Shown here piece by piece: positions 9,279-52,318 of a stretch of DNA of 64,000 nt. The position numbers and the translations under genes were made by a program. Numbering within the stretch: position 1 is the stretch's first letter; every line of letters begins with the position of its first letter. A model generated the notes under the pieces. The model was not told the origin of the DNA. It made no database searches and worked only from the letters and a program-made list of their open reading frames with translations. Source of the stretch: Antedon mediterranea (lineage: Eukaryota > Echinodermata > Crinoidea > Comatulida > Antedonidae); contig NC_092674.1 of assembly GCF_964355755.1 (NCBI RefSeq), positions 31,794,001-31,858,000 of the forward strand, in the 5' to 3' direction.

Positions 9279-12200
9279 ATGGCTCCAGTCGAAAGTTTTC
9301 CGCAATTAAATCGACGAAGAATAAGTGCGTCGGTTCAGTCAATTTTCAACGCTGTTGTAAGCGCTGCACTATTGGTATTGTGTACATATGTGTTTCTAAA
9401 GTTTAAGCAGCTGGACTCAAAGTTTGACGAGTTTCAGGTAGTCATGTTTAAAATAGTTTTTTTAGTTATTTCTAATAGCTAAATAATATAAACTAGTGTT
9501 TTTTTTTGGATAAGCAGACTGTAGTATAATTTTACAAATATACTGCGTTTAATTTATAGGCCTTTTGGATAAGTTCACTAATTAACTTGGCACTTGGCGG
9601 AATTAGTGTATTACTATTATTCCCAATACTATAAAGTGTTTTTTTAAACATCATCCTTAGACGGAAATTCCCGTAGTGAACCAGCGACAAGTAGCCCTAG
9701 AGGAAAAACCCCAAAAAACCACGAGTAACTGTACTATTCAATGTAAGTGCAATCTATAAAATAAGACGTAAATGCTGATGGTCCTGTACCATATTTTGAT
9801 GTTATTATAGTTTTATAATGCCCTATCAATTATGTAAACATTATGATGATATTCGGTAGTATTTGGTAGAAAATGTAATTGAAAACCTTTATCATTGCAG
9901 GTCCTCGTAGCCCAGCTCCTGGACCGGAAGGACTAAAATCAGCTCCTGGTGTACCAGGTAAATTATAGTACATTGCCACAGTTTTGGTTCCAATACGGTT
10001 TTTATACAAACGCAAATGTTTATATCTTGTCATGTTCCCATCCACTTTTACTTTTTTGTCGATTTTTGTTGTTTAGTCATTCGCGGTCAACACGCCACAG
10101 TGTTAAATTTTGATGTTGTTAATCTTTACATTAGAAGATTGTTAAAATCATGTAAATAAAACATTTTCCGGGCGGGAATCTAGCAGCTCTTCTAAGTTTG
10201 CAAAAGTATTCACGAAATGTGGAAAAGAAGCCCACCCAAGAGTAAATGGCTTCTTTTCGAGGTTTTATGGCAGTCTATTTAATGGAATGCCATGCAATTT
10301 TGTTTCTGATTTTAAAAAAGGTCCACTTGTTTAGGCCTGACATTTACAACCCACAAAAAATATCTCTCTTTCAAAATAAAAGAAAAAGAATATTCATTAT
10401 TTTCCATACAAAGAAAAAATATCCGTCGAGATTCGAACCAATCTAGAGCTGAGAGCACTCAAACCTGAGCATTACCCGTTACGCCACAATGTAGTACATG
10501 ACTTAACAGCTGATAGTAGTCTATTTATACGTGTATTGTACGTAATTCATCATTAGGTCATAAATATCATAATAACCTTGTTACCTCACGAAAATGACCA
10601 GTTAGCTCAGTCGTCTGAGCGTCATGTTAACAACACGTATGTCGTTGGTTCGATTCCCACGCTGGTCGGTGGAATAAAGTTAAAGCTATGCGAGCAACTG
10701 TGTTTGGGGTTCACAGAATTATACGTCCCCCTTTCCACGACATCAATGAATCTGGTGATGTGCTGGAAACGACCCCAAAAGGCTGTGGCAGGGCGTTAGT
10801 GCTATAGTGCTGAGAGCACATTTAACATATTTTTTTTTTATTTATTTTTTTTTTCAAACTTTATTCGATCTCGTAAATGTTATGTTTGGCGGCCTCAATT
10901 TTAAAAGAAATTAATATTTCATCGCAGGTGTATGCCCTGCGTTGTTATGCAATGGTTGTGTAGTGGGAAAGATGGATTGTTAGTCATTCGCGGTCAACAC
11001 GCCATACTGTTAAATTTTTATTTTGTCAATCAATGTTGCTACATTGGTAGCGAAATGTCCGATTCAATGCAAGATATTGTATTGTAATATGTTGAATGTT
11101 ATGAATAAACGTTTTGTGGTAGTTGGTGTGTATGGCCGCACCGTCCCAGAATAAACATGTTTTAAACATAGTTTGTCTTCGATGGATTTTGTATGGGGTT
11201 AATGGAGAGTGAAATAAGATCAAATAGTAGACAACCCCACCTACAATTTTGAAGTCGCATCTGGATAGTTGACATTTTAACATTATCATAATTGTCATAG
11301 GTGATTATGTATAGTAATAAGTATAAGTATAAGTTTCTGGGCTCTATTTTCATTATTAGCTCGATCATTCATTGTTTCTGCTTTACCGTTGCTTCCAATT
11401 GTGACAAAAAACGATTCAGTTTTTTTTTACAATTATGTATGCGGCCACGTTTAAAAGAAGAGCGATATTTCGATTGAATGAGATGGAATTTTGTGTCTTA
11501 ACAAACAATTAATGCATCAACTTTACAGGTGTTCCTGGTTACCCTGGTAACAATGGCGAGCCCGGAAGCAAAGGTGATCAAGGAAAAGAAGGTAAAACAA
11601 CTTTTATACATCATCATCATATGAAGTTTATGTGTGTTTGTTCATTCGTTCATTTTTTGCCACACCAACAGCGCGCGCGTCATCGCAACTAAAATGGTGG
11701 TATTATATAGAAAATGTAAACGAAAACCATTATCATTACAGGTTCCCGTGGCCCTCCTGGACCGGAAGGACCAAAAGCAGTTCCCGGTGTACCAGGTAAT
11801 TGGCACAATATTAATATGATGCGAATTAATTAATATACCGTCACTGTACCAAGAGAGGACGTATCAGTGTGTTACGCGTTATCTATCCACTCATTTTAGT
11901 GGTCAAATGATAGGATGGCAGCTCATTCTTGTTTTTGCTTCCGTTTTGACATCATCAACAAACGATTAGTTTTCGGGTTTTTTACACCATCATTTACATG
12001 CCGCGTAATCGAGTGATTTGTGTATTTTTAAACAAAAAATGCATCAACTTTACAGGTGTTCCTGGTTACCCTGGTAACAATGGTGAACCCGGCTGCAAAG
12101 GTGATCAGGGAATAAGAGGTAAAACTACTGATCATAGTCATCATCTTTATTATTATTATTATAATTACAACATTTGGACAAATTAGTAAAATAACTTTAT

Positions 12201-26413: not shown

Positions 26414-26485
26414 GCCCCAGTGGTCTAATGGTTAGGACATCAGCATATCAAGCAGGCGGTCCGAGTTCGAGTCTCGGTTGGGGCG
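26414..26485 (+). tRNA. tRNA-Asp(AUC)-like, unit 1 (mismatched anticodon stem)
   Basis: The acceptor GCCCCAG/TTGGGGC, D-arm and T-arm pair well. The anticodon stem TCAGC/GCAGG has one A-A mismatch. The loop ATATCAA gives anticodon ATC. A T-run pol III terminator follows at once. It is more likely part of a mobile repeat than a working tRNA. Confidence 0.45.
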
Positions 26486-26777
26486 ACTTTTTCTCATTCT
26501 CACAGATTTCCTCATCTTTATCGTTTCACATTAATTAATTAAATTTCAGTATATCACCGGGCGGTTTCGAATTAATGTTCATTGCCTAATGTGTTTATAT
26601 ATATAAAAGTATCTCTTCGGAGATCCCGCCTCGTGTATAAAAATACTGAAAGATGAGGGCGTATCAATTTGATCTCTGGTGCGCGTGCGTACAACTGAGG
26701 ACTAGTGCTGTTCCGCCGTACCACGCCGAGAATGTTAAAGAGTCGTTATCCAATCGAGTTCGAACAATACCATGAAA

Positions 26778-26849
26778 GCCCCAGTGGTCTAATGGTTAGG
26801 ACATCTGCATATCAAGCAGGCGGTCCGAGTTCGAGTCTCGGTTGGGGCG
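26778..26849 (+). tRNA. tRNA-Asp(AUC)-like, unit 2 (complete cloverleaf)
   Basis: All four stems pair: acceptor GCCCCAG/TTGGGGC with one G-T, D stem GTCT/GGAC, anticodon stem TCTGC/GCAGG with one T-G, and T stem CCGAG/CTCGG. T33, the TTCGA loop, discriminator G73 and a TTTTT terminator are present. The anticodon is ATC; animals normally read Asp codons with GTC. It could be a functional gene, a tRNA-derived SINE head, or a decoy. Confidence 0.55.
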
Positions 26850-27143
26850 ACTTTTTCTCATTCTCACAGATTTCCTCATCTTTATCGTTTCAAATTAATT
26901 AATTAAATCTCAGTATATCACCGGGCGGTTTAGAATTAATGTTCTTTGCCTATTGTGTTTATATATATAAAAGTATCTCTTCGGAGATCCCGTCTCGTGA
27001 ATAAAAATACTGAAAGATGAGGGCGTATTAATTTGATCTCTGTTGCGCGTGCGTACAACTGAGGACTAGTGCTGTTCCGCCGTACCACGCCGAGAATGTT
27101 ATAAAGAGTCGTTATCCAATCGAGTTCGAACAATACCATGAAA

Positions 27144-27215
27144 GCCCCAGTGGTCTAATGGTTAGGACATCTGCATATCAAGCAGGCGGTCCTAGTTCGA
27201 GTCTCGGTTGGGGCG
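27144..27215 (+). tRNA. tRNA-Asp(AUC)-like, unit 3 (T-stem mismatch)
   Basis: Same as unit 2 but with T stem CCTAG/CTCGG, one mismatch. The pol III terminator run is kept. Confidence 0.45.
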
Positions 27216-30521: not shown

Positions 30522-30880
30522 ATAATCGCGTCGAGCATAGCTCATTGGCGAATGTTCCGTATTTTTTAGTTGTATGAAAAAATGTCTCTGGCTGGATTCG
30601 AATCTGCAACCTCTCGCTTACAGGGCGAGTATCATACCACTAGACCACAGAGCCATGTATGGTATTATCACAGATTTTCACCCACCAGATACATTCTCTC
30701 ATACAGCAAACGCCCTCACAATCAGTGTGGAGGCTTGTTGACAAGTCAGAATAAATTCCAACTTTAATTCGCAACGGTTTTTTAAATAATATTGTGTATA
30801 TGTAAATCAATGATGTTGCGTAGCACTGTGTAAATTATATATAAATCATACTGTAAATTATAGAAACAGTGCTCATATTC
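30522..30880 (-). mobile_element. Probable tRNA-Pro-like SINE with 13-bp target duplication
   Basis: GGAACATGATCTC occurs at about 30509-30521 and again at about 30881-30893, flanking this segment. On the minus strand near 30655-30585 a tRNA-like sequence is seen (GGTCTAGTGGTATGATAC, loop CCTGTAA, GATTCGAATCC). Its T stem is broken, so it is a pseudo-tRNA head. Confidence 0.55.
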
Positions 30881-35402: not shown

Positions 35403-35732
35403 CACCACCATTAAACAATATCATGCAATATTGCTATTCATTTAAGATTCTTTCATGGCTATAGACAATTGAATAATATTCCACAGAACACAAAATAAAT
35501 ATTTATGTTGTTGTGGAATAAAACATAATAATCATTTGATTGATTCACACATTTAGGTAGATAGATTATTACACTTTGCATACAAAGTAAAATATAAGAG
35601 GTATATCTATTAGAAATAATGTTTTTATTAAATGCCATCATATTATAATTTATTATTTGTTTATTGATATACCTGAACATTTATTTATTTACACATTACA
35701 CTAAGGCCATGGTTAAAAAAGTTTTTGCTGTG

Positions 35733-36214
35733 CACCAGGGGCTATAGGACCTTTCTAGTGCATCAGTAACTATCAGACTTTCTGTAGTAGTGCACCAGGG
35801 GCTATAGGACCTTTCTAGTGCATCAGTAACTATATGACTTTCTGTAGTAGTGCACCAGTGGCTATAGGACCTTTCTAGTGCATCAGTAACTATATGACTT
35901 TCTGTAGTAGTGCACCAGGGGCTATAGGACCTTTCTAGTGCATCAGTAACTATATGACTTTCTGTAGTAGTGCACCAGTGGCTATAGAACCTTTCTAGTG
36001 CATCAGTAACTATATGACTTTCTGTAGTAGTGCACCAGTGGCTATAGAACCTTTCTAGTGCATCAGTAACTATATGACTTTCTGTAGTAGTGCACCAGTG
36101 GCTATAGAACCTTTCTAGTGTATCAGTAACTATCAGACTTTCTGTAGTAGTGCACCAGTGGCTATAGAACCTTTCTAGTGCATCAGTAAACTATCAGACT
36201 TTCTGTAGTCAGTG
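35733..36214. repeat. 60-bp minisatellite, 8 units
   Basis: Units of exactly 60 bp contain GTGCACCAGGGGCTATAGGA and ACTTTCTGTAGTAG. They vary at a few positions (CAGGGG/CAGTGG, TATATG/TATCAG). Related CACCTATAG words continue near 36337-36360. Confidence 0.93.
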
Positions 36215-36622
36215 CTTATTCATCTAGTTGTACAACAGTGACAAGATTTTTTCTGCAATATTATGTAAAATTATTATATTATTTTTCTTTCATTATGCAG
36301 TTAGGCCTAGGCTATCCATCATTTCAGTTCTTCAGTGCACCTATAGGCCACCTATAGTGCACCATACAACAAAGTGACTATCTTTCCTGCAATCAGTTGC
36401 AATGACACCATATTTTGTGCGAGCAAGCTTTCAATGCTCTAAATCACATTTCTAAGTTATTTATTCCAAAACTTATTGCTATTTTAAAATTGCTTTTTTT
36501 TTTCTAATTTAATACATTTATAACCAACGTGGTCGTGTATAGTTTATTTATAAAGCCAAACACTATTGTAAACTACTGCAACTATGTTTCTTATTGTTGG
36601 AAGTATGAACTATATGGTAGTA

Positions 36623-39600
36623 TCATTTTAATAGGAGATAAAATGACCAGTACATTATATTAAATGTAATAAAGATGCAAGGAAAGAGTATCCTTGCCCA
36701 TTTATCAATGATATTAACATCTTTTATACCCGGAACCCTTATTCTTGGTCTCCGTTTATTTCTTTTTATAGGATTATTTATTTTTCTTGGACAATATACA
36801 ATGTTGTGGTTGGTCCGTCGACCATCAAGGCTTGTTTTGCGTCGATGTTTTAGGCCTAGTGTCGGTGTTCTACTTGGACCATCAAGTCCATTTAAGGTGT
36901 CCACATGAAATCCGGATTCCTCTTCTTCATCTTGCTGCTGTGAAAGACGTTTTCCTACACTTTGATTGGTCGGTATCTGTTGGGATAAAATGTTACGTCA
37001 TTCAGAAATAATTTGTTTTAATTAATTCTTAATTGTTCTTATCATAGTAACGAATGTTGTTTATTAAGTTTCTTTTTTTAATCTTTGTCTTTTTATTTAT
37101 TACTGTTTTTGTCTTGTTATGTATAGTGATAGGTTCCCGACACACCATTTTAAACTAGTGGGCACATAGTTAGTTATTTCTACTCTAGGCTAAATATTAC
37201 ATCATTTACATGCAAGTCGATCGCCATCATTTATTTGAATCTATTTATCTACACACATTTCTCATCTCCACATCGGTAATTTATTGTATTGTATTAGTAA
37301 AATTTCTAAAAAAATACTTGCTTCTGTATAATAACTATAATAGGTCGATCTTGGATTGGGTAAAATCTTTGTCTTCTCTTGTTGTTTTTTCTTTTTTTGT
37401 AGTGACCAATAACTAAAGTTGACAAGCGCGTATTCTAGGAGGGCAGCAAAGACAAAAGCGAAGCACGTGACCAGATAGATATCTATGGCTTTGATATATG
37501 AAATTCTTGGAAGTGTCTGACGGACGCTGATTGTTGTCATTGTTAATACAGTTGTGATACCTACAAAGATAAATGTTACAGATATCAAATATGTAGTTAT
37601 AATTCCACAAATATTATTGTTTAGAATACTTACAAACTGGCAATGTTGAGATCAGATTAATGTATCTAGAACAATAATATGGTTTACCCTTGATTTTAAG
37701 ATATTTTCAGGAAAGTAATATATAAGTTAGCGTTCAATAATAATTCTGTCAAAATGTCTAGTCTAGGCAATTAGCCATAATAATCGTAAACTAATTATTT
37801 AATTAAGATTATTCTTGTCATATATTTTTCCAATAATGTTTTATAAATAATATTTCTGATTGAGAAATTTACAAAATGTGTAAATATCTTTCTTGGTTTC
37901 ACTGAAGTGTACTTACTATTCCACACAAATTGTGAACGTTCATAATTATTAAGAAACATTTTCACCCAATACTCGGTGTATGTATACTTACTATTCCTCA
38001 CATTGTGAACGTTAATAATTATTAAGAAACATCTTCACCCAATACTCGGTGTATGTATACTTACTATTCCCCACACATTGTCAACGTTCATAATTATTAA
38101 GAAACATCTTCACCCAATACTCGGTGTAAGCACATGCACGAAACCATTTTTTGACTTTGCCAAATGATTATTTCATGCACTTCTGGTTAATATGAAGAAG
38201 CTCTGAAGTGTGTGGGTTAAGCTTAGATTAATGAAATAATGTGAAATTTTAATAGTTCCTTTTAGAAGATTTACCTACCATAGCATATTATGTAACAATA
38301 ATTACATAATGTTACATAGAAAGCTTTATAGTTTTACAAATCTAAAAGAAACATTTTTTAAAAAGAAAGTTTTAGTGATATGATGTTAGCCATGTTATTT
38401 AGTAATATTTTACCGAAATGAATCATTGTTGAGTTCATCCTTTGAAATAAAAACCAAAGCATTATCTGCATACTGTAGGCCTATGTTAACCCATTTAAAA
38501 ATCAAAATGACAGATAAATTGTGAATTAGTTAGCAAACTGTGCCACCACTTTAAATTAGTTATCGCGTATCCTTCAAGATATCAAAAATATCATTCAGAT
38601 TTATATTTTGATATAGTTAAATTATATATTTGCATAATTTATTTTACTAGATGATATATACTTGTATCTATGCTACGTGCTCTGGTCTTCACTTCATAAT
38701 GTTAAATAATAAGGATGTTAAAGATGAGTTTGCCTACTGAAATGTAATAGAACAAACACGCAACAGATAACACACATCTAAACAGATGAATAAGAATCAA
38801 TTGTTATTTAAATTTAGTATGAACCCCGCTACAAAATAAACATGATGCTGTTTCTTCATAAAATGGTGTATGACCTAATAAGCTCATGCAGCTGAGTGGT
38901 ACCGTTAGATTGCGCTTACCGAGGGCAACTCTAGCTGAGGTGGCTTCGTGGTTAATCCAAAAAGCAACCCACGACAATATGACGATCAGATTCGATGGAA
39001 GAAACGTTTGAAGGATGAAAAAACTTATATTTCTGCGCATCCGAAAAATTAAAGACAGGCGGGGGTACTGACCTGGATTTTGAAAGAAAAAAATATCTGT
39101 AACTTCATAAAACAAATGTTAACGACGATTCACCCGATCGTGTTACACCATTTTGATTTAAATATTAAAAACATTTTGGATTGCACGTGCGCGCCACAAA
39201 CGTAATTTAGCACTGACAACGCCATTTCAGCATTTCGCGACTTTACAACAAAAATATTTAATGAGTGTAACTCTTAGAAGGTGAATCGTCACAGCAATGT
39301 GTCGTCCTTACCAAGGGCAACCCTAGCGGCCGTAGCCTCATGGTTGATCCAGAATGCGACCCACGATAAGATTACAATCAGAGTACATGGTAGAAATGTT
39401 TGCAGTGCATGAGAGCCTATGTTACGACGCATCTGAAACGCTATGCTCAAACGCGAGTAATCACCTGAAAAGAGAGGTCAACCACTAATAACTTAACATG
39501 TTAACATTTTAATTTAACTCGCCTCTGAGTGTATCAATATACAAATTAATAATTTATAAAATTATATATAATCCGTATGTTGTGGAACACTGGTTTCGAG

Positions 39601-42600
39601 GGTTATTCTTTAATTCATTTAGTAAATACTATATTGACAATATGTTACTATACCTGTAGAAAAGTTTTGAACCTTAGCTTGAACACTATAATCAACTAAC
39701 GTAAACTGAGCCATGTCAATGTTCTCTGTACCTTCAATAGAGTTGTCACCGTACTCCCACCGATACATTATGTCTTCTGTTGTATACCCATCTAATACCA
39801 TAAAGAACAATGTATTCTTATCAATCAATCTAATTTCAAACTCTTTTCTTAAGGACCCCATTGGAAATAAGTCCTATAACTAGGACTTTCATGGGCTTTC
39901 CTTGCATCTCTAAATCTGATTTTTTATTTTACTTATTTAAATTGTATTATTAAAGATTTAGGCCTATTGTCCCTTGGAACACAGAAAAATGAAGGTCAAA
40001 ATATTCTAAATTTAAATTGGCCATATCAAAGTAATATTAAAGTTATTCACTTTAAGTCCAAAAACAACAAGTTTACGTAAGTAACAGGTAAATTAGTTTG
40101 ATTACATTTCGTCTGAAAAATCGTCGCGAGCTAAACTAAACAAAAATTTCAAACCACGAGTATGCATTATGCATATGCTAATTTGGATTGTTTACAACTC
40201 GTCACTGTTGAGAATGTGTTTTCACACAGATCGCGAGGGATTTATGATTTTATGATTATGCATACAGAGTAGCCAAACAAGCACGTTCCCATTATGGAAC
40301 ATGTTTTGATCGAAAACTTTGACTGGAAGTCAAAGTTATTTTTTGAACAAAAAAACGTCTGTGTTTTAGTTAAATGATTTTTTTTGGACTAATTTTTGGT
40401 GAAAGTTAATAACTATTATGAAACTTCAAAATGACCCACCCAGGGACAATACATCTTTAAATTGTAGTTAAGTACAAATAAAAGAGATTCAGTCAAAAAA
40501 GAATTTTAATAACAATGAAGGAACATTTTAAAAATGATTGTAATTATGTATGATATGTTTTTAGTAGACTAACTTTTAACTTGAATTTAATGTGTAATTA
40601 TGTATTTTCCCATGTCATGTATTTTGAGATGCAAATAAAACAAACCAAACTAAACCAAAACTGTGGTTGAAACAATTACAATTACAGAATTACTGTACTA
40701 ACAATTTATTTGTCGAAAACAAAATACAAAGATGGGCTTATGTTTAAATCTTGATGACTACCAAAAATCAGGTCAATCACTACATCAAGTCGAGTTTTCA
40801 AATCATTTTATAATCCTTCACATATACTTGCTTTTATATTTGTAACATGTGAACAACATTATTTACTTTATGATCTCAAACGTCATTGTCCAGTTAATTT
40901 GCTATTCCTTTCATCGTGTTTATATCAATACTTTCGTCCAAGCTTTTAGATAAAGATTAATTTAATTTGAAAATTATAAAATAATAGAATACTTTATGAT
41001 AGTTATAGTTTTAAAACATTTTATAAAATTAGAAAGCATCGCATTTGTAACGTGATTGCCTAAAGTCATCTCGTTTGAAAAACAACCATAATGTATGTCA
41101 TGTTGTGATTATGCGAACACTATAATAATAATACTTTTTATTTATCCTCCTAATACATTAAGTATGTCAGTTATTTTCTTAGAATCCATTACTTGACGTA
41201 ATGGATGAATGGATATGATATTGCATTCAGATTCAATAATCTTAACAATAGGTATACTTACAACTTTCAATTTCTAACGTACAGTTTTGTTCATCCATTG
41301 GATAATGTTGTAAGTCCATCATACACGATGCCACTGTTGTAATCCTAAAATAATCATATATATTAATGAATTAAATTACACAAATGTGACGCAACCATGA
41401 ATCATGTATCGATTGTCTTAACCAGGTGGAACATTCAGAAATCAGCTTATCATATGCATGTGGACTTTTTTGACATTCAATTAATCAATTATAAATTGTT
41501 CCATATAGGAAATGTAAAGACCGACCACTACGATAAAAAGCAATTGAACCGTTAGAAACATTCTCACATTAGTCATTAGATAGTAATTCTACATTGAACA
41601 GCATGTTAACATTTGGTTACTTAGTTTATTATAGACCATAGGAAAGGTAAAGACCGACCACTACGATAATAAAGCAATTGAACCGTTAGAAACATTCTCA
41701 CATTAGTCATTAGATAGTAATTCTACATTGAACAGCATGTTAACATTTGGTTACTTAGTTTATTATAGACCATAGGAAAGGTAAAGACCGACCACTACGA
41801 TAATAAAGCAATTGAACCGTTAGAAACATTCTCACATTAGTCATTAGATAGTAATTCTACATTGAACAGCATGTTAACATTTGGTTACTTAGTTTATTAT
41901 AGACCATAGGAAAGGTAAAGACCGACCACTACGATAATAAAGCAATTGAACCGTTAGAAACATTCTCACATTAGTCATTAGATATAGTAATTCTACATTG
42001 AACAGCATGTTAACATTTGGTTACTTAGTTTATTATAGACCATAGGAAAGGTAAAGACCGACCACTACGATAATAAAGCAATTGAACCGTTAGAAACATT
42101 CTAACACTCTCTTTCTCTGGAAACGTTTTCTGTCATTCCGACACGCTTTCCACGATTTGTTTCTATATTTCTCTGTTTTGGGCAGGATGGTTTGTTATTT
42201 TGATAATGGAGGTATAAAACTAATTTTATACCTCCATGTTGTAATAAGGTCTATATTTTTTATCTGGTTCATCCAGTTTTCTTTGGTAACCCTGGCGGTT
42301 TTTTTACTTTCTTTTCAGTTTCCTTCATTGCTTGTTTAATTGGCGTATCGTCTGGCGTATAGTATAATTATATGGCCATATAGTCCGGTGGCAGGAGGGG
42401 GGAATCACCACCCGAAAGGGGACAAATTGCCATCCAACTTTTCTAGACTAGAATTTTCCGTAGATTACGAATATGGAAGGTAATCGATCAGGATAGGAAG
42501 CGTTTTCGAGATATAAGGGGTCAAAGTTCAAAATTGACCAATTACAACAATGTATTATGTATATGTATTATAACAAATTTATTATGATGATTATAAGTGT

Positions 42601-45600
42601 CTATTCAATCACCTTATGAAAAAAAAATCCTTTGTGCTTAAGGGTCAAATGTCAATATTGGCCAATCATAGAACGTACCTATAAAACCAAATAAAAACTA
42701 ATATTTAATCAAAATTGGATTTTTTCCTGTTAATCAATCATACGCAACGTAAAAGAGCGAATACATCATTTCATCAGTTGAAATAAGGTCAATTTCATCA
42801 GTTGACATAAGGTCAAAGGTCAACATTTTAGTACGCGTATTAGTTAACAAATAAATGCAAAGTTGTCCAAACTATGATATTGATGGTTTTACAAGTAATC
42901 AAATTATTTGATTAGTAAAGTTATGTTATTTCATTATAATACTGTATTTAATCAAATCAGACTTCGATCAGGATAGGAAGCGAATAGGAAGAGATAAGGG
43001 GTCAAAGTTCAAAATTGACCAATTATAACAATGTATTATAACCAATTTATTAAAGTTCAATTTGGTCTTTCAATACATTTGTATGGTTATAGGTATTGTA
43101 TGGTGTTATTCAGTCGCCTTATAAAACAAATACTTCGCAATTAAAGGTCAAATGTCAATATTGACCAATCACACAATTTGCATTTAAAACCAAATAAAAA
43201 CTAACATTTAATACAAAATGTTATGTTTTATCATTCTGTTGAGACATCTATCAATCATACACAATCAAAAGAGCACATCTATCATTACACAAGTTGACAT
43301 GCGTCAAAGGTCAACATTTGAACAAATGATATACTAAATAATTAAAGTTATTCAAACTATGAGATCGATGTTCATAAATTTAATCACGTTATTTGATCAG
43401 TGAAGTTATGGTATTTTTATGTTTTTTCTAGTGCGCATTATTTTAAATGTATTAATATAATACTGTAAAATAAATAATAAAATTAATATTATGACGATTA
43501 AAATGTTATGATGTTAAAATGTTGCGCTATGACCAATGATTTGCCACTATACAGTTGCATTTATAAGGGCTACAATATTCGTTTTTGGAAAATAAACTAT
43601 TCATCAGAACCAGAGAATACATATTCGTGCAGGATAGGGAAGGCAGATCCAGGTGGCCAAACTCAATCCACAACTCACTACACAGACAGACCCCTATTTT
43701 TATATAGTTTGGCCCATACAGGAAAGAGTTTCCTGTATACAAGGATTCTAAAATAACCCATATGGATTTGCCCGAATGAACCCTCTAAGGACCCTTTTGG
43801 GATCTCTATGTGGTGTGCTTCTACATAAGGCCCTGTATTAGAAATTAGTATGGGGTAAATAGTTCATAGATGAACTATGGAATAAAACTAAATGTGCACC
43901 CTCAATCTTTAAATAACATTATTTATGGATTTGCCCAAATGGACCCAAGGCAGATTCTTCAGGGACCTTTCGGGGTTCTCTATGTGGGGCTACAAGAGAC
44001 CCTATATTGGAAATAATGTATGTGGGGTGAAAATGTGGGTTCATAGAGATATAATAAATATCCCTGTGCACCCTCGATCATCCATAAGGAACATTTTATG
44101 GATTTGCCCAAATTAACCCAAGGGCCGGTCGTTCTCCATGGATGGACATTAAGCTCCATAATGGAAATATAAGGGTTGACACTGTGAGTTCATATAGACA
44201 GGCGCGGCCCATGAATTAAGGTGCCTGTGCACTCTCGATCCTTAAGAAAAATTTATGGATTTGCTCAAATTAACCCAAGGGCCGGTCTTCCATGGACATT
44301 AAGTCCCATAATGGAAATATAATGGGTGACACTGTGGGTTTATATAGACAGGCAGAACCATGGAATAAAGCTGCCTGTGCACTCTCGATCCTTAAGGAAC
44401 ACTTATGGATTTGCCCAAATTAACCCAAGGGCCGGTCCTTCATGGATGGACATTAAGCCCCATAATGGAAATATAATGGGTGACACTGTGGGTTTATAAA
44501 GACAGGCACATGGAATAAAGCTGCCTGTGCACTCTCGATCCTTAAGGAACACTTATGGATTTGCCCAAATTAACCCCCAAAGGCCGGTCCTCCATGGATG
44601 GACATTAAGCTCCATAATGGACATATAACGGGTGACACTGTGGGTTCATAATAGACAGGCGGGGCCTATGGAATAAAGCTGCCTTGCACTCTCGATCCTT
44701 AAGGAACACTTATGGATTTGCCCAAATTAACCCAAGGGCCGGTCATCCATGGACATTAAGCCTCATAATGGAAATATAGGTGGTGACAATGTGGGTTTAT
44801 ATAGACAGGCACATGGAATAAAGCTGCCTGTGCACTCTCGATCCTTAAGGAACCGATTTGGATTTTGCCTAAAATGAAACAACAGCAGGTCATCTATTTA
44901 GACCCTTCTGTGGTTCTCTACTGTATGTTCAGTTCTACATTTGGCTCCTGTATCGGATCAATGCATTTGGCTACATAAGTTACTGTGTTACAAATATATC
45001 GGGTAACTATAACTGTAGGTTCCAATATTAAGCCATGGGAAAAGCCTGTCTGTGCACCCTCAATCTTTTTAAAAGGAACCCATATGGATTTGCCAAAATG
45101 AACCAACGGTAACTTCTGAATTCTCTATGAGCCGTAAATTTTGTTTATTGGAGATACATGGATACCTGATTGAAATTGCTCAAAAGAAAGACATTGTACT
45201 GTATAGTAATAGTATTATTCCCCTTCCACACCTCTTTGTATTAAATCCGCCCTGATAGGCTCTTATGTACAGGATTTCAAGGCAATAATCACACTTGTAT
45301 TTTTCAAACAGTATAATCTATTAGATTGAATAAAAATATCTATTATAAACAATTTGCCGTTAGAAATCTCTATGCCATGTCGTTATTTAGATGAGAAAAA
45401 CAGGTCAAAGGTTAAAATTACAGAAAAATAGGTGTTTCAGTCACTTTTGAAAAAAATGTTGCATTATGGCAAGTATAAACATATATATTGTGAACAATTT
45501 GACACCAAAATTGGCTCCTTACGACAAATATTTATTAATTTATGTTTTTATAACCTTATTCAATTATGTCAAAGGTTAATAACCACACTTCCGGTAATTT

Positions 45601-48600
45601 TCAAGCAATATCAACTGTTATACTGAATATAAATGTATATCTTGGGAACAATTTGCTCCTATTTTTAATTCTCTCCGACCTGCCGTTACTTAGATATAGC
45701 AAAAAGAGGTCAAAGGTCAAAATTGCTAACAATGGGGTTTCCGGTCAATTTTTCAAAGAAAGTTCTGTTAGAGCTAATATAAACATATACATTGTGAACA
45801 ATTTGACACCAAAATTATCTCACTACGTCCAGAATTTCCAGAGATATAGCATGTTTTTATATTGGTCAATTTTGAACTTTGACCCCTTATATCTCGAAAA
45901 CGCTTCCTATCCTGATCGATTACCTTCCATATTCGTAATCTACGGAAAATTCTGGTCTAGAAAAGTTGGATGGCAATTTGTCCCCTTTCTGGTGGTGATA
46001 TCCCCCCTCCTGCCACCGGACTAATACCATTTTAATCTTCTTCGATTAATTCTTTTACTCTATTCTTCTTGTCTAATTGTGTGTCATTAGATATATTAAT
46101 TCTACATTGATCAGCTTTTGGCTACTCGGTTATACCAATACAAGATACAACCTCAAATTTGACACAAACACAAAACATGCAAGTATAATAATACCTATAG
46201 TAATACCTTAACCCATATAAAATTGTTCCATCGTAATGTAGCCGAATGAGGCGGTTTTTAACCGTTATATCATGCACGAAAGACCTTTTGTCATTTACAA
46301 AGTATGTATCTGGAACCCATATATTATCTGCTTGTCTTCCATCCAGGGATATGTTGCCGAGCTCTTTTGTGTATTGTAGTCGTTTGTCTTGCCAGTACTG
46401 TCGGAAGTACATTGTGATTGTATATTCCTGTAAAAACAAAATATAACAAAATATAATTATGGTATTACTATGCAGTAGTAGTTTTATTAATTTTATTTAA
46501 CCTTGTTTTATAGTATTAAAGGTGACCCAGAATAAAGCACAGCAAAATTACAGAAAAATACAGACAAAATTATACTATAGTATAATAACAATGTTAAAAC
46601 AATAAAGATTTCAGGGTATGAACATGTTATTTATTGTAGGGAAACAAAATAAATATGGTATTTAAGTTATTATTTATGTATTTTAGGTACCGTACTGCCT
46701 CTGGACGATCTGGAGCTCGTGGGTTCTAGTTATCAAGTTAGTGAGTGGGAATTACGCCAGAGTATAGGGCAAAACAGCAATTACTATCGCTCCATTTATA
46801 TTAATGAATACGTACCTCTATTTACATTTATTCAGTTAAGTATGTTTTTCATTATCCAAAATTATCTGTTATGTTAATTTTCCTTGTTGTGAATAATAAT
46901 GAATATGGTATTATTTCATGGTTATATACAAGGTAGTCGGCAATATAACTACAATTAAAAAAATTAATGTATGTACGGTATTCAAGGATCAATATTTTTA
47001 ATTTGATATGTCTTGAACTGACAACATCGGGTAGCCTTACAGATTCTAAGGTTATAGTTTCATGTAACGCGACGCAAGTATAATTACGAAGATTCTCTCT
47101 GATTTGTTATTAATAACGTTATACTGTACATAATGCAGAAACGATGAAACTATCGTTCTTACCTCTAGTCACGTGCCTATGGGCGGCATAGATAACACAG
47201 CTTAATATCACAGCGAAATACATTGGAAACAATATCTAATTCATATTGGTATGCAAATTCCGTTGATAGTACATCTTATCGGGTAATTATATGTAACCAA
47301 TTATTCACCAAATCGATTATATTCAATTAAGTGCAGGATACTATAATCACTCCTAATGGTAATTTACTTGAATTGGTATCTACAATGAAAACCGCACCCT
47401 TACATCTCAATATTATTTAAATATTGGGCCACCCATCTTATGTAAACACGTGCTTTATGTAGTTCTATCAAAAATATCGATCTTTCACCCGATTCTTACG
47501 GTCATATCATCAGCAGATTCTTAAACAACGATTGCGATTATGTCATTTTTATGCTAAATATAAATGATTTAAAGGTGTATTATCCCCTAAAATCAAGAAA
47601 AATGAAGATTATTAAAATCAAACTTTGAATAGGCCATTTTGTAGTTTTAACAAAAGTAATTACTTCCGTAGAAAAAAGATATTTTCTTATAAAATGACAA
47701 AATAAATGGTCTAAATTCAACCAAAAACCTATTGGCTGGCAGCCAATTTTTCAGGTAAATAATTTTTTTTTCAATCCCATTTTTGGTCAAAGTGGATAAC
47801 TATTATGTGACATTAAAATGGTATATTCAACAACAAATATGTAGGCTAAAAAATTATTTTTCAGGGGGACAATACATATTTAAAACAAAAGTTTCTACTT
47901 ATATTTAAAAATTAAAAAAAACCAAATATAAAACGTCATGTGGCTCCAACATAAGGAATGGACATGAACTAATTATTAAAAAAAATAATTGGCAGAAGCC
48001 CTTTCGCAACACACAAATATTTGAGCCGATTTACAAGATGTTGCGGTAAAGACAAGATATTACCCGGGGCATGTTTGTACGAGAGCTGTAACTACAATTT
48101 AACCGATGCAATATTAAGCCTGTATTGGGTTTCAAATCAATCGAAATGTTCTTCTAACGAAATACCGCTGGCGATAGTTGAGATGATCATACTTAGGTAT
48201 ATATTGCTCGAACAATTTTGGTTGATAAAATGTTGAATAGTTACTATCCTTATACGAACATGTCGATGTATTTTTCTATTCAATATAGCATGTTATACGT
48301 ATAGTTATAATGATGATTAATGATAATTATGATAGGTATTATTACCGTCATGGTTATCATCTAAATAATTTAACACTACCACCTATGTCTTAATAGTGTA
48401 GGCTGGTATGTCGTTTATATGAATGTCGTGTATATTTTTTGTTAAAAGCAAACTTTGACTTTATTTCATATCTTGATAATATAAGGAATGAAAAAAAATA
48501 TGTTGCCATTTTTTCAAAAGACATTTAAAGGACCAAATTCAAGATGGCCACCAACATTCAAATAACCCTATTAAAAATCAGAATATCACCAATAATACAT

Positions 48601-51600: not shown

Positions 51601-52318
51601 ATTTTATGTGATTTCAATCAACGTCATAGCTTGCACATGTTTTAATAAGAAATTTAATCCATTTTTAAAAAATGGCGGCCATTTTGAAATTCAAAATGTC
51701 AGAATACTAATGAATATAGGTTTATAATAATTCTTATATAGCAGAGAACCCATATGAACTTAAAATATTATTCATAATGGGTGTTACTTTGTCCAATATG
51801 GTACATTTATTGGATATTTTACGTATTGGCGGCCATCTTGGATTTGACACCCTTAAGCTTTTTTAAAAAAATGGCAACATATTTTTTTCATTACTTTACA
51901 TCCTAAAGACACTAAATCAGCTGGAATTTTGCTTTTAACAAAAAAATGACACGAAATTACATAGTGGCCTACACTATAAGCCTATATTGTTGGTTGAGAA
52001 TTACTATAACTTCACTTTGTACTCAAACACATTTGTAGGCCTATTATAAAAAAACAGCAGTTCACTCATTTTGAATAAAGAGTATTAAACGATAAATTAA
52101 TTAAACTAATCATGTCTCGCTTGTAATTGATAATTATTATAAAGGCGTGATATGACTAAATGACTCTGACTGAAGTGTCTCGTTACGGTACGTCGAAGAA
52201 AATAATTAACACAAATTGGATTGCATGTGTATAAGAATAAAATGTATTACCATATTGACTTCAGAGAAGCTATTGATACTGGCTATTTCCATATCGACGC
52301 CAACCATAACCGCAGGAC
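36623..52318 (-). CDS. GABRB: GABA-A receptor beta-like subunit (5' end missing)
   Basis: Subunit of a pentameric anion channel. Exons in transcript order: 52318-52251 (SEVNM), 46427-46207 ([24 protein letters not shown]), 41344-41262 (Cys-loop, [12 protein letters not shown]), 39791-39654 (GYTTEDI, FSTG), then either 39464-39312 or 39072-38920 (M1), 37560-about 37318 (M2-M3, [17 protein letters not shown]), and about 36930-36623 (M4, [18 protein letters not shown]). GABA-contact residues are kept: Tyr in DTYF, E-S-Y before GYTT, and F-S-T-G-x-Y in loop C. The A-x-A-R-V-A-L-G sequence at the M2 start fits anion selectivity and is closest to vertebrate beta subunits. The M3-M4 loop join is unresolved: the best donor (phase 1) fits an AAG acceptor, but a phase-0 CAGCAG acceptor lies 4-7 nt upstream. 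Signal peptide and first extracellular exons were not found. Confidence 0.93.
37905..38130. repeat. ~70-bp tandem repeat, 3 units, in a GABA receptor intron
   Basis: TACTTACTATTCC, GTGAACGTT(C)ATAATTATT and CACCCAATACTCGGTGTA occur three times in succession with small changes. Confidence 0.88.
38920..39072 (-). CDS. GABRB: Alternative M1 exon B of the GABA receptor
   Basis: Also 153 nt, phase 1 at both ends, bordered by TTTCAAAATCCAG and GTAAGCGC. It encodes [29 protein letters not shown]1 and ARVALG. It is closer to canonical beta subunits than exon A. Only 239 nt separate the two exons. Using one or the other keeps frame; using both would repeat M1 and is unlikely to give a working channel. 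Confidence 0.92.
39312..39464 (-). CDS. GABRB: Alternative M1 exon A of the GABA receptor
   Basis: 153 nt, phase 1 at both ends, bordered by CTCTTTTCAG and GTAAGGAC. It encodes loop C Tyr, [18 protein letters not shown], the M1 helix and the start of M2 (ARVALG). Compared with exon B, 12 of 50 residues differ, mainly in the pre-M1 segment and upper M1. The Gly-Ser-His-Ala stretch is unusual for beta subunits. Confidence 0.92.
39950..40460. mobile_element. TTAA MITE, 511-bp copy
   Basis: Ends TTAAAGATTTAGGCCTATTG and GGGACAATACATCTTTAA, with TTAA on both sides. Its body is about 85 percent or more identical by eye to the element at 54272, in the same orientation (shared TATGCATTATGCATATGCTA). 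Confidence 0.82.
41519..42108. repeat. 134-bp tandem repeat, about 4.4 units
   Basis: GACCGACCACTACGATAATA recurs at 41519, 41652, 41786, 41920 and 42056. Units include GTTAGAAACATTCTCACATT and AACAGCATGTTAACATTTGG. A diverged fragment of the unit appears again at about 46085-46130, beyond transposon 2. Confidence 0.93.
42381..46023. mobile_element. 3.64-kb long-TIR DNA transposon 2, non-autonomous
   Basis: The ends are TAGTCCGGTGGCAGGAGGGG and its complement, with about 165 bp of near-perfect inverted repeat including GGATGGCAATTTGTCCCCTT. ATA is duplicated on both sides (42378-42380, 46024-46026). It shares TAGTCC termini, 3-bp duplications and subterminal GGTCAAAGGTCA-bearing modules with transposon 1, so both belong to one family. 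The interior holds an array of about 140-180-bp repeats and no transposase. Confidence 0.88.
43735..45110. repeat. Degenerate 140-180-bp tandem repeat inside transposon 2
   Basis: TATGGATTTGCCCAAAT, AACCCAAGGGCCGGTC, CATAATGGAAATATA and GTGCACTCTCGATCCTTAAG recur in order about eight times, with outer units more diverged. Confidence 0.88.
46440..47568. other. GABA receptor intron sequence
   Basis: No exon, repeat family or RNA gene is recognised in this 1.1-kb stretch. Confidence 0.4.
47569..47883. mobile_element. TTAA MITE, 315-bp copy
   Basis: Ends TTAAAGGTGTATTATCCCC and GGGGGACAATACATATTTAA. It contains CCTATTGGCTGGCAGCC, the complement of a segment in the 14102 element, and TTTTTGGTCAAAGTGGATAA, which is related to 29240-29370. 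Confidence 0.72.
48394..51976. mobile_element. 3.58-kb long-TIR DNA transposon 3
   Basis: The ends TAGTGTAGGC(T/C) and complement are flanked by a TAA duplication (48391-48393, 51977-51979). Inverted homology of about 170 bp includes TTGTTAAAAGCAAA and ATATGTTGCCATTTTTT. Subterminal regions repeat GGCCATCTTGGATTT and AATGGCGGCCATTTT. A first frame at 49946 ([13 protein letters not shown]) ends at a donor-like GTAGGT. 50240-51370 looks like a decayed coding region with fragments such as [12 protein letters not shown]; the family is not identified. Confidence 0.8.

Follow-up and report, generated by a model that had tools for sequence, protein, structure and literature searches.

Tandem copies of the M1 exon in a GABA-A receptor beta-class subunit gene of the crinoid Antedon mediterranea, likely spliced one at a time

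The window analysed here, a stretch of 64,000 nucleotides from Antedon mediterranea (C5:31794001-31858000, in a genome of 354 Mb and 18 contigs that was also scanned), carries on its minus strand a GABA-A receptor subunit gene with exons 3, 4, 5 and 6, two copies of exon 7 (7A and 7B), exon 8 and a last exon with M4. Its parts are listed below in window positions, in the order in which the gene is read.

52251..52318, minus strand: exon 3, 68 nt
46207..46427, minus strand: exon 4, ligand-binding domain, 221 nt, with a PF02931 match
41262..41344, minus strand: exon 5, Cys-loop, 83 nt
39654..39791, minus strand: exon 6, the common upstream exon, 138 nt, its peptide ending in QNFST
39465..39653, minus strand: intron 6, 189 nt, upstream of exon 7A
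39312..39464, minus strand: exon 7A, 153 nt, phase 1-1, with a PF02932 match at C5:31833310-31833396
39073..39311, minus strand: intron between 7A and 7B, 239 nt, GT-AG
38920..39072, minus strand: exon 7B, 153 nt, phase 1-1, with a PF02932 match at C5:31832918-31833004
37561..38919, minus strand: intron 7, 1359 nt, downstream of exon 7B
37406..37560, minus strand: start of exon 8, M2 and M3, as far as VNFSYW, the 3' limit being a candidate
36623..36976, minus strand: last exon, with part of the M3-M4 loop, M4 and the stop TGA (36623-36625), the acceptor that gives 36976 being a candidate

The open frame is continuous through exons 4-5-6-7A-8, and exon 7B has the same phase and the same ends as 7A. 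A match to exon 2 lies outside the window, at C5:31858732-31858788; an exon 1 was not found. Comparison of the exon 4-8 protein (isoform B peptide) with PDB chains gave beta-1 as the best match (376 bits), followed by beta-2 and beta-3 chains (369-372 bits), delta (282 bits), a chain that we take to be RDL (267 bits) and rho-1 (261 bits). The subunit is thus closest to beta over the ligand-binding domain and M1-M3, and on a tree of exon-7 peptides both copies join the vertebrate beta chains with a support of 89/95. Its product is, by sequence, a GABA-A receptor beta-class subunit, of the same class as vertebrate GABRB1-3, in line with the sequence-only reading that had called a GABA-A receptor subunit at this place. 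The Cys-loop and an anion-channel-type M2 start with the 9' Leu are both present, and the predicted function, that of the class, would be a GABA-gated chloride channel. The exon sizes of 68, 221, 83, 138 and 153 nt equal those of the vertebrate GABRB genes. The latter are not known to have more than one exon 7, whereas the present gene has two.

Exons 7A and 7B form a tandem pair of adjacent, homologous exons with equal length, equal phase and intact splice sites, and lie exactly where the sequence-only reading had placed two 153-nt, phase 1 exons with acceptors and GTAAG donors. Both are of the GT-AG type, with AG acceptors (CTCTCTTTTCAG for exon 7A and TTTCAAAATCCAG for exon 7B) and the donors GTAAGG in 7A and GTAAGC in 7B. 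Each encodes the end of loop C, M1, the M1-M2 linker and M2 up to 4'. The two peptides have 39 of 51 residues in common and differ at 12, or agree at 40 of 52 when one adds the residue encoded across the junction with exon 8; these are the same 12 differences that lay behind the earlier figure of 38 of 50. At the DNA level 104 of the 153 nt are identical, with 40, 43 and 21 of 51 agreeing at the first, second and third codon positions, respectively.

A profile built from 14 exon-7 peptides, 7A and 7B themselves included, found the pair in the six frames of the window at 89.3 and 88.6 bits; the other five places listed (E up to 5) had scores below zero, and no third copy of exon 7 was found in this search. 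The independent Pfam model PF02932 matched both exons in the genome scan, with 39.7 and 33.0 bits. Duplicates of exons 4, 5, 6, 8 and 9 were likewise sought in the window and none was found, the other matches being short and weak (E of at least 0.045). Exons 8 and 9 exist there in a single full copy, unlike the alternative 3' blocks of the unc-49 type, in which M1-M4 all lie in alternative exons.

Among the relatives, 7A and 7B come out as sisters. The tree of the 14 exon-7 peptides (52 columns), from which L006 was left out, as it was from the residue table, its peptide being cut at the locus border, joins the two with a support of 79/68, so that a sister relation inside the beta clade has moderate support from the peptides. 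Residues in common with beta-1 number 34 of 52 for 7A and 37 of 52 for 7B. In six paralogous anion-channel loci of the genome (L001-L004, L005/L006 and L007) no second M1 exon was found at E < 0.5, apart from one weak match in L003 (E 0.099) that contains a stop and was taken as chance. Only L001 among the six has a separate M1 exon, likewise of 153 nt; M1 and the start of M2 are encoded in one exon in L002, L003, L004, L006 and L007. Genome-wide, no other pair of PF02932 matches within 1 kb, on one strand and over the same M1 stretch, was seen among at least 72 matches (a table read by eye, with counts that are lower bounds).

By region, the two peptides differ at 5 of 12 columns in loop C and beta10, at 4 of 5 at the outer top of M1, at 2 of 9 in mid M1 and at 1 of 12 at the M1-M2 end. 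Residue numbers are those of chain 9ctv_D, offset by 60 from the query; on this scale exon position 3 is 205, a residue that we take to be the loop C Tyr, and position 17 is 219. The residue before this Tyr, position 2 (204), is Asp in 7A and Gln in 7B, a change that had already been noticed, and position 4 (206) is Ser in 7A and Pro in 7B. Further along, in the strand before M1, the exons have Ile/Leu at position 8, Ala/Ile at 9 and Gln/Arg at 11. The outer top of M1, positions 17-20 (beta 219-222), reads Gly-Ser-His-Ala in 7A and Ser-Phe-Phe-Ile in 7B, and positions 27-28 (229-230) are Cys-Thr in 7A and Ser-Asn in 7B, exchanges that had been described correctly as GSHA versus SFFI and PCTL versus PSNL. 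Position 46, the pore -2' residue, is Ala in 7A and Ser in 7B; this difference had been missed. The claim that changes cluster in pre-M1 and upper M1 survives for upper M1 and fails for pre-M1, where the residues RRNI are the same in both exons (0 of 4 differ). Clustering as such is weak in the tests: the longest run of differing columns is four (P 0.07 uniform, 0.11 weighted), and the P of 0.001 for a difference in every one of columns 17-20 was calculated post hoc.

One could suppose that 7A and 7B are used alternatively and yet are equivalent, their differences being drift and the pair being kept for reasons of expression or splicing. In relatives, the differing columns are indeed more variable than the others by their mean entropy (1.65 vs 0.95), and 7A and 7B do not differ at the M1 drug contacts, which we take to be Gln224, position 227 and Pro228 in beta numbering. 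We nevertheless regard equivalence as unlikely, given where some of the other differences fall. In a reference set of 12 sequences (five paralogues from the same genome and seven PDB chains), Tyr occurs at position 18 in 11 and Leu in the remaining one, and position 19 is Phe or Tyr in all 12; at these near-invariant aromatic positions the exons differ, with Ser and His in 7A and Phe at both in 7B. The pore -2' residue, for which the two beta references have Ala and the ten remaining sequences Pro, differs as well. Moreover, columns 29-52 hold only one of the 12 differences (weighted P 0.012).

The divergence of the pair speaks of a long separate history. By the Nei-Gojobori count, pS between 7A and 7B is 0.80, saturated and beyond correction, and pN is 0.17, a combination that indicates an old duplication with both copies constrained. 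When one copy was left to drift neutrally until pS reached 0.6, pN ranged from 0.30 to 0.78 and in none of 2000 simulations was it as low as 0.17, which shows that both copies were constrained for most of their separate history; the open frame survived in 287 of the 2000 runs. Purifying selection has acted on 7A and 7B over most of their history, and the very recent death of one of them is compatible with these values. Recent gene conversion was considered as the source of the identity between the copies and rejected, because the DNA has diverged where the peptides are the same: in lower M1, 0 of 10 residues differ, yet 7 of 10 third positions do.

Such a recent death would make one exon, A or B, a relic that has lately dropped out of splicing and is decaying, in a gene that makes a single beta subunit. 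Exon A would be the candidate, with Ser-His where the references have Tyr (one Leu) and Phe or Tyr, as a relaxed copy might, and with a somewhat longer terminal branch on the tree (0.21 vs 0.14 for 7B). This explanation seems to us quite unlikely, since neither exon has a stop, acceptor and donor are intact in both, and pN is low at saturated pS with no neutral run reaching it. Among the 12 references 11 columns are invariant, and each copy conforms to them at 10; the A form also scores slightly above the B form on the Pfam membrane model (112.3 vs 107.0 bits).

Taken globally, these observations suggest a GABA-A beta gene in which exon 7 was duplicated in tandem and whose copies are likely spliced alternatively, one into each transcript, to give two beta subunits. 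Use of one copy at a time would follow from the protein itself, because a transcript with both exons would code for two M1 helices and one with neither exon would lack M1, while either one keeps the frame. On the Pfam membrane model the A form and the B form each have one matching stretch and a hypothetical double-inclusion form has two; with both exons skipped, the match begins at profile position 27 and M1 is missing. Mutually exclusive use is the best reading of the exon structure and, as had been proposed earlier for this pair, stays the likely one, in that two or zero M1 helices would be expected to break the fold. By this exon choice the animal probably makes two versions of an inhibitory channel.

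The exon length leaves room for another outcome. With 153 nt divisible by 3 and phase 1-1, none of the four combinations (A, B, both, neither) closes the frame, and the pair might yield a frame-keeping regulatory isoform, containing both exons or lacking both, with the role of a non-channel or dominant-negative subunit. Such a by-product alone, however, would not be expected to keep two different M1 sequences under selection, and we consider this very unlikely. Finally, a duplication of one exon in the assembly or between haplotypes, raised earlier as a possibility and suggested by adjacency alone, has a negligible probability, being ruled out by the divergence of the pair (104 of 153 nt and 21 of 51 third positions identical, pS 0.80) and being at odds with the absence of 7A and 7B from the repeat finder's list.

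If the two copies are used in a mutually exclusive manner, the means of exclusion would have to lie outside the reading frame: as the frame is open in all four cases, neither the frame nor NMD can enforce exclusivity. By the usual yardstick an intron of 239 nt is too long for steric exclusion, and the splice sites of 7A and 7B are GT-AG, U2-type in look and without U12 look; intron length and site type speak against steric exclusion and against U2/U12 incompatibility. By elimination, exclusivity would be brought about by protein regulators, or by an RNA structure not visible in one genome. A search for competing docking structures in the three introns gave best energies of -15.8, -14.0 and -14.8, against minima of -16.8, -16.6 and -15.0 in 20 shuffles each; a coarser step was used in scanning the shuffles, a bias, if there is one, in favour of the real sequence, and intron 6 was taken as 39465-39654, one base over. 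Duplexes between whole introns were equalled by shuffles in 2 of 60 cases for intron 6 with the middle intron, in 51 for intron 6 with intron 7 and in 15 for the middle intron with intron 7. No selector structure beating the shuffles was found in these three introns of one genome, a comparison that is by its nature without covariation.

Mechanistically, the swapped residues are found next to Tyr205 of loop C, at the outer top of M1 and at pore -2', and on account of these locations the exon switch would tune gating, desensitization and the response to modulators. Two functional ideas had been put forward from the sequence, a tuning of gating and a tuning of sensitivity to lipophilic modulators; the former stands as the stronger and the latter is weakened by the sameness of the M1 drug contacts in 7A and 7B. 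Gly219 of beta is kept in 7A and replaced by Ser in 7B, and mutational work by Chang et al. from 2003 on a residue that we presume to be this Gly219 is reportedly, going by its title, in line with a gating role. As to the linker, the accessible part of one study describes an influence of the beta2 M1-M2 linker on desensitization, which became 50-fold faster when beta2 was given the linker of rho1 (PMC4410641).

The outer end of M2, encoded in exon 8 (37514-37531, minus strand) and common to isoforms A and B, reads ISVRQT, six residues as against eight in the beta-1 and beta-3 PDB chains. It is two residues shorter than in these chains and than in the six paralogous loci compared (L001-L004, L006 and L007), which likewise have eight, with the loss around 15'-18'. 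We take beta 15' to be a determinant of etomidate action and the beta His at 17' to be a zinc and proton site. Given Ser-His at the M1 top and Ala at -2', in a subunit without two residues near the 17' His site, isoform A could conceivably be an inhibitory receptor tuned by protons or zinc, and isoform B, blind to pH, would desensitize differently, which would make the pair a gating splice switch in the membrane domain, at positions to which mutagenesis has pointed in mammalian studies. This proposal is tentative, and we consider it unlikely.

Tandem alternative exons are already known in the Cys-loop superfamily. In insects, according to the available excerpts, Rdl exons 3 and 6 and GluCl exon 3 are mutually exclusive and lie at ligand-binding loops (PMC2064938), in agreement with the earlier statement that the alternative exons of RDL and GluCl are extracellular, and tandem alternative exons also occur in the nAChR genes, at alpha4 exon 4 and alpha6 exons 3 and 8 (PMC2064938, PMC1919356). 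As far as these texts go, the window gene resembles insect Rdl and GluCl in having tandem homologous exons in a Cys-loop anion-channel gene, with a one-for-one swap of a segment. It differs in that their exons encode extracellular ligand-binding loops, whereas exon 7 encodes M1, the M1-M2 linker and the pore entrance, and in being of beta type, not Rdl or GluCl.

A closer parallel in position is insect nAChR alpha6, whose mutually exclusive exons are described, in the portions of the sources at hand, as including part of TM2 (PMC6393475) and whose exon 8 extends to the exon 9 boundary at the top of TM3 (PMC3644170). Like 7A/7B, the alpha6 exons 8a/8b/8c are copies of one exon that stand in tandem and code for part of a Cys-loop receptor's membrane domain, and transcripts of them have been published (PMC6393475, PMC1919356, PMC3644170). 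However, alpha6 is nicotinic and by this partial account swaps part of TM2, while the window gene swaps M1 and has most of M2 and all of M3 in common.

In C. elegans unc-49, by the sections of the literature available, one extracellular block can be joined to any of three alternative blocks on its 3' side, each with transmembrane segments of its own (PMC6920096), so that this gene, like ours, is a GABA receptor gene in which splicing changes transmembrane segments including M1 (PMC6920096, PMC11296113). The same sections have unc-49 swapping whole 3' exon blocks, to give subunits A, B and C, and place it phylogenetically closer to RDL; the window gene, on the other hand, is beta-type and swaps one internal exon with the rest in common. 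The earlier assertion that no swap of M1 was known in this family was too strong in view of the transmembrane blocks of unc-49 (PMC6920096) and of the part of M2 swapped in alpha6 (PMC6393475), as these are described in the excerpts. For a swap of a single M1 exon, or a duplicated M1 exon, in a GABA-A gene no report was found in the open-licence literature, a weak absence, and the M1 exon of a GABA-A beta gene may in that limited sense be a place for tandem alternative exons that had not been reported.

Should both forms be expressed, the gene would provide a natural exchange of M1 in an otherwise constant GABA-A beta subunit, in which the 12 differences could be tested singly, including those at beta 219, at the aromatic pair 220-221 and at -2', which bear on the coupling of agonist binding to gating and on desensitization. 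GABA-A diversity could then be created in the membrane domain by one exon choice, as compared with the up to 19 GABA-A subunits that the consulted part of one account gives for mammals (PMC11296113).

The surroundings of the gene hold further receptor genes. An alpha/gamma-like GABA-A subunit gene (L001, C5:31883000-31888500, plus strand) stands head-to-head with the beta gene, its exon 4 about 25 kb beyond exon 2 of the latter on the opposite strand. Its alpha-like M2 (L001:3001-3060), SLAILTILTITT, runs across an exon join and has Leu at 6' where the compared relatives have Thr, a replacement that, we presume, may alter picrotoxin sensitivity. More anion-channel genes (L002, L003 and L004) are found at a distance of about 0.3 Mb on the same contig, and on another contig Cys-loop receptor matches form a large cluster (G000, C3:6653495-6946354), in which some contain stops and two neighbours are equal in score. 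Two HCN genes were also compared with PDB chains. One came closest to the sea urchin chain 2ptm (287 bits, against 256 for HCN4), which fits the earlier assumption of an echinoderm source; the other had a higher score with HCN2 (160 bits) than with 2ptm (141 bits), and for its N-terminal part the chains listed were HCN1, HCN3, HCN4 and KCNH, so that the comparison falls short of proving that assumption.

Several tandem repeats accompany the beta gene. Just 3' of it, at 35730-36215, a 60-bp unit is repeated 8.1 times with 97% matches inside a minus-strand frame that runs over 164 codons from stop to stop, where it amounts to a 20-residue repeat. Intron 7 contains a tandem repeat of period 73-75 at 37910-38128, and the large intron between exons 4 and 5 contains two more, at 41505-42106 (134 bp x 4.5) and 44063-44853 (150 bp x 5.2). 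Elsewhere in the window, three tandem tRNA genes about 365 bp apart occupy 26414-27215 (called by ARAGORN as Asp, with the unusual anticodon ATC), and Rfam tRNA matches were also found at 10596 on the plus strand and at 30583 on the minus strand.
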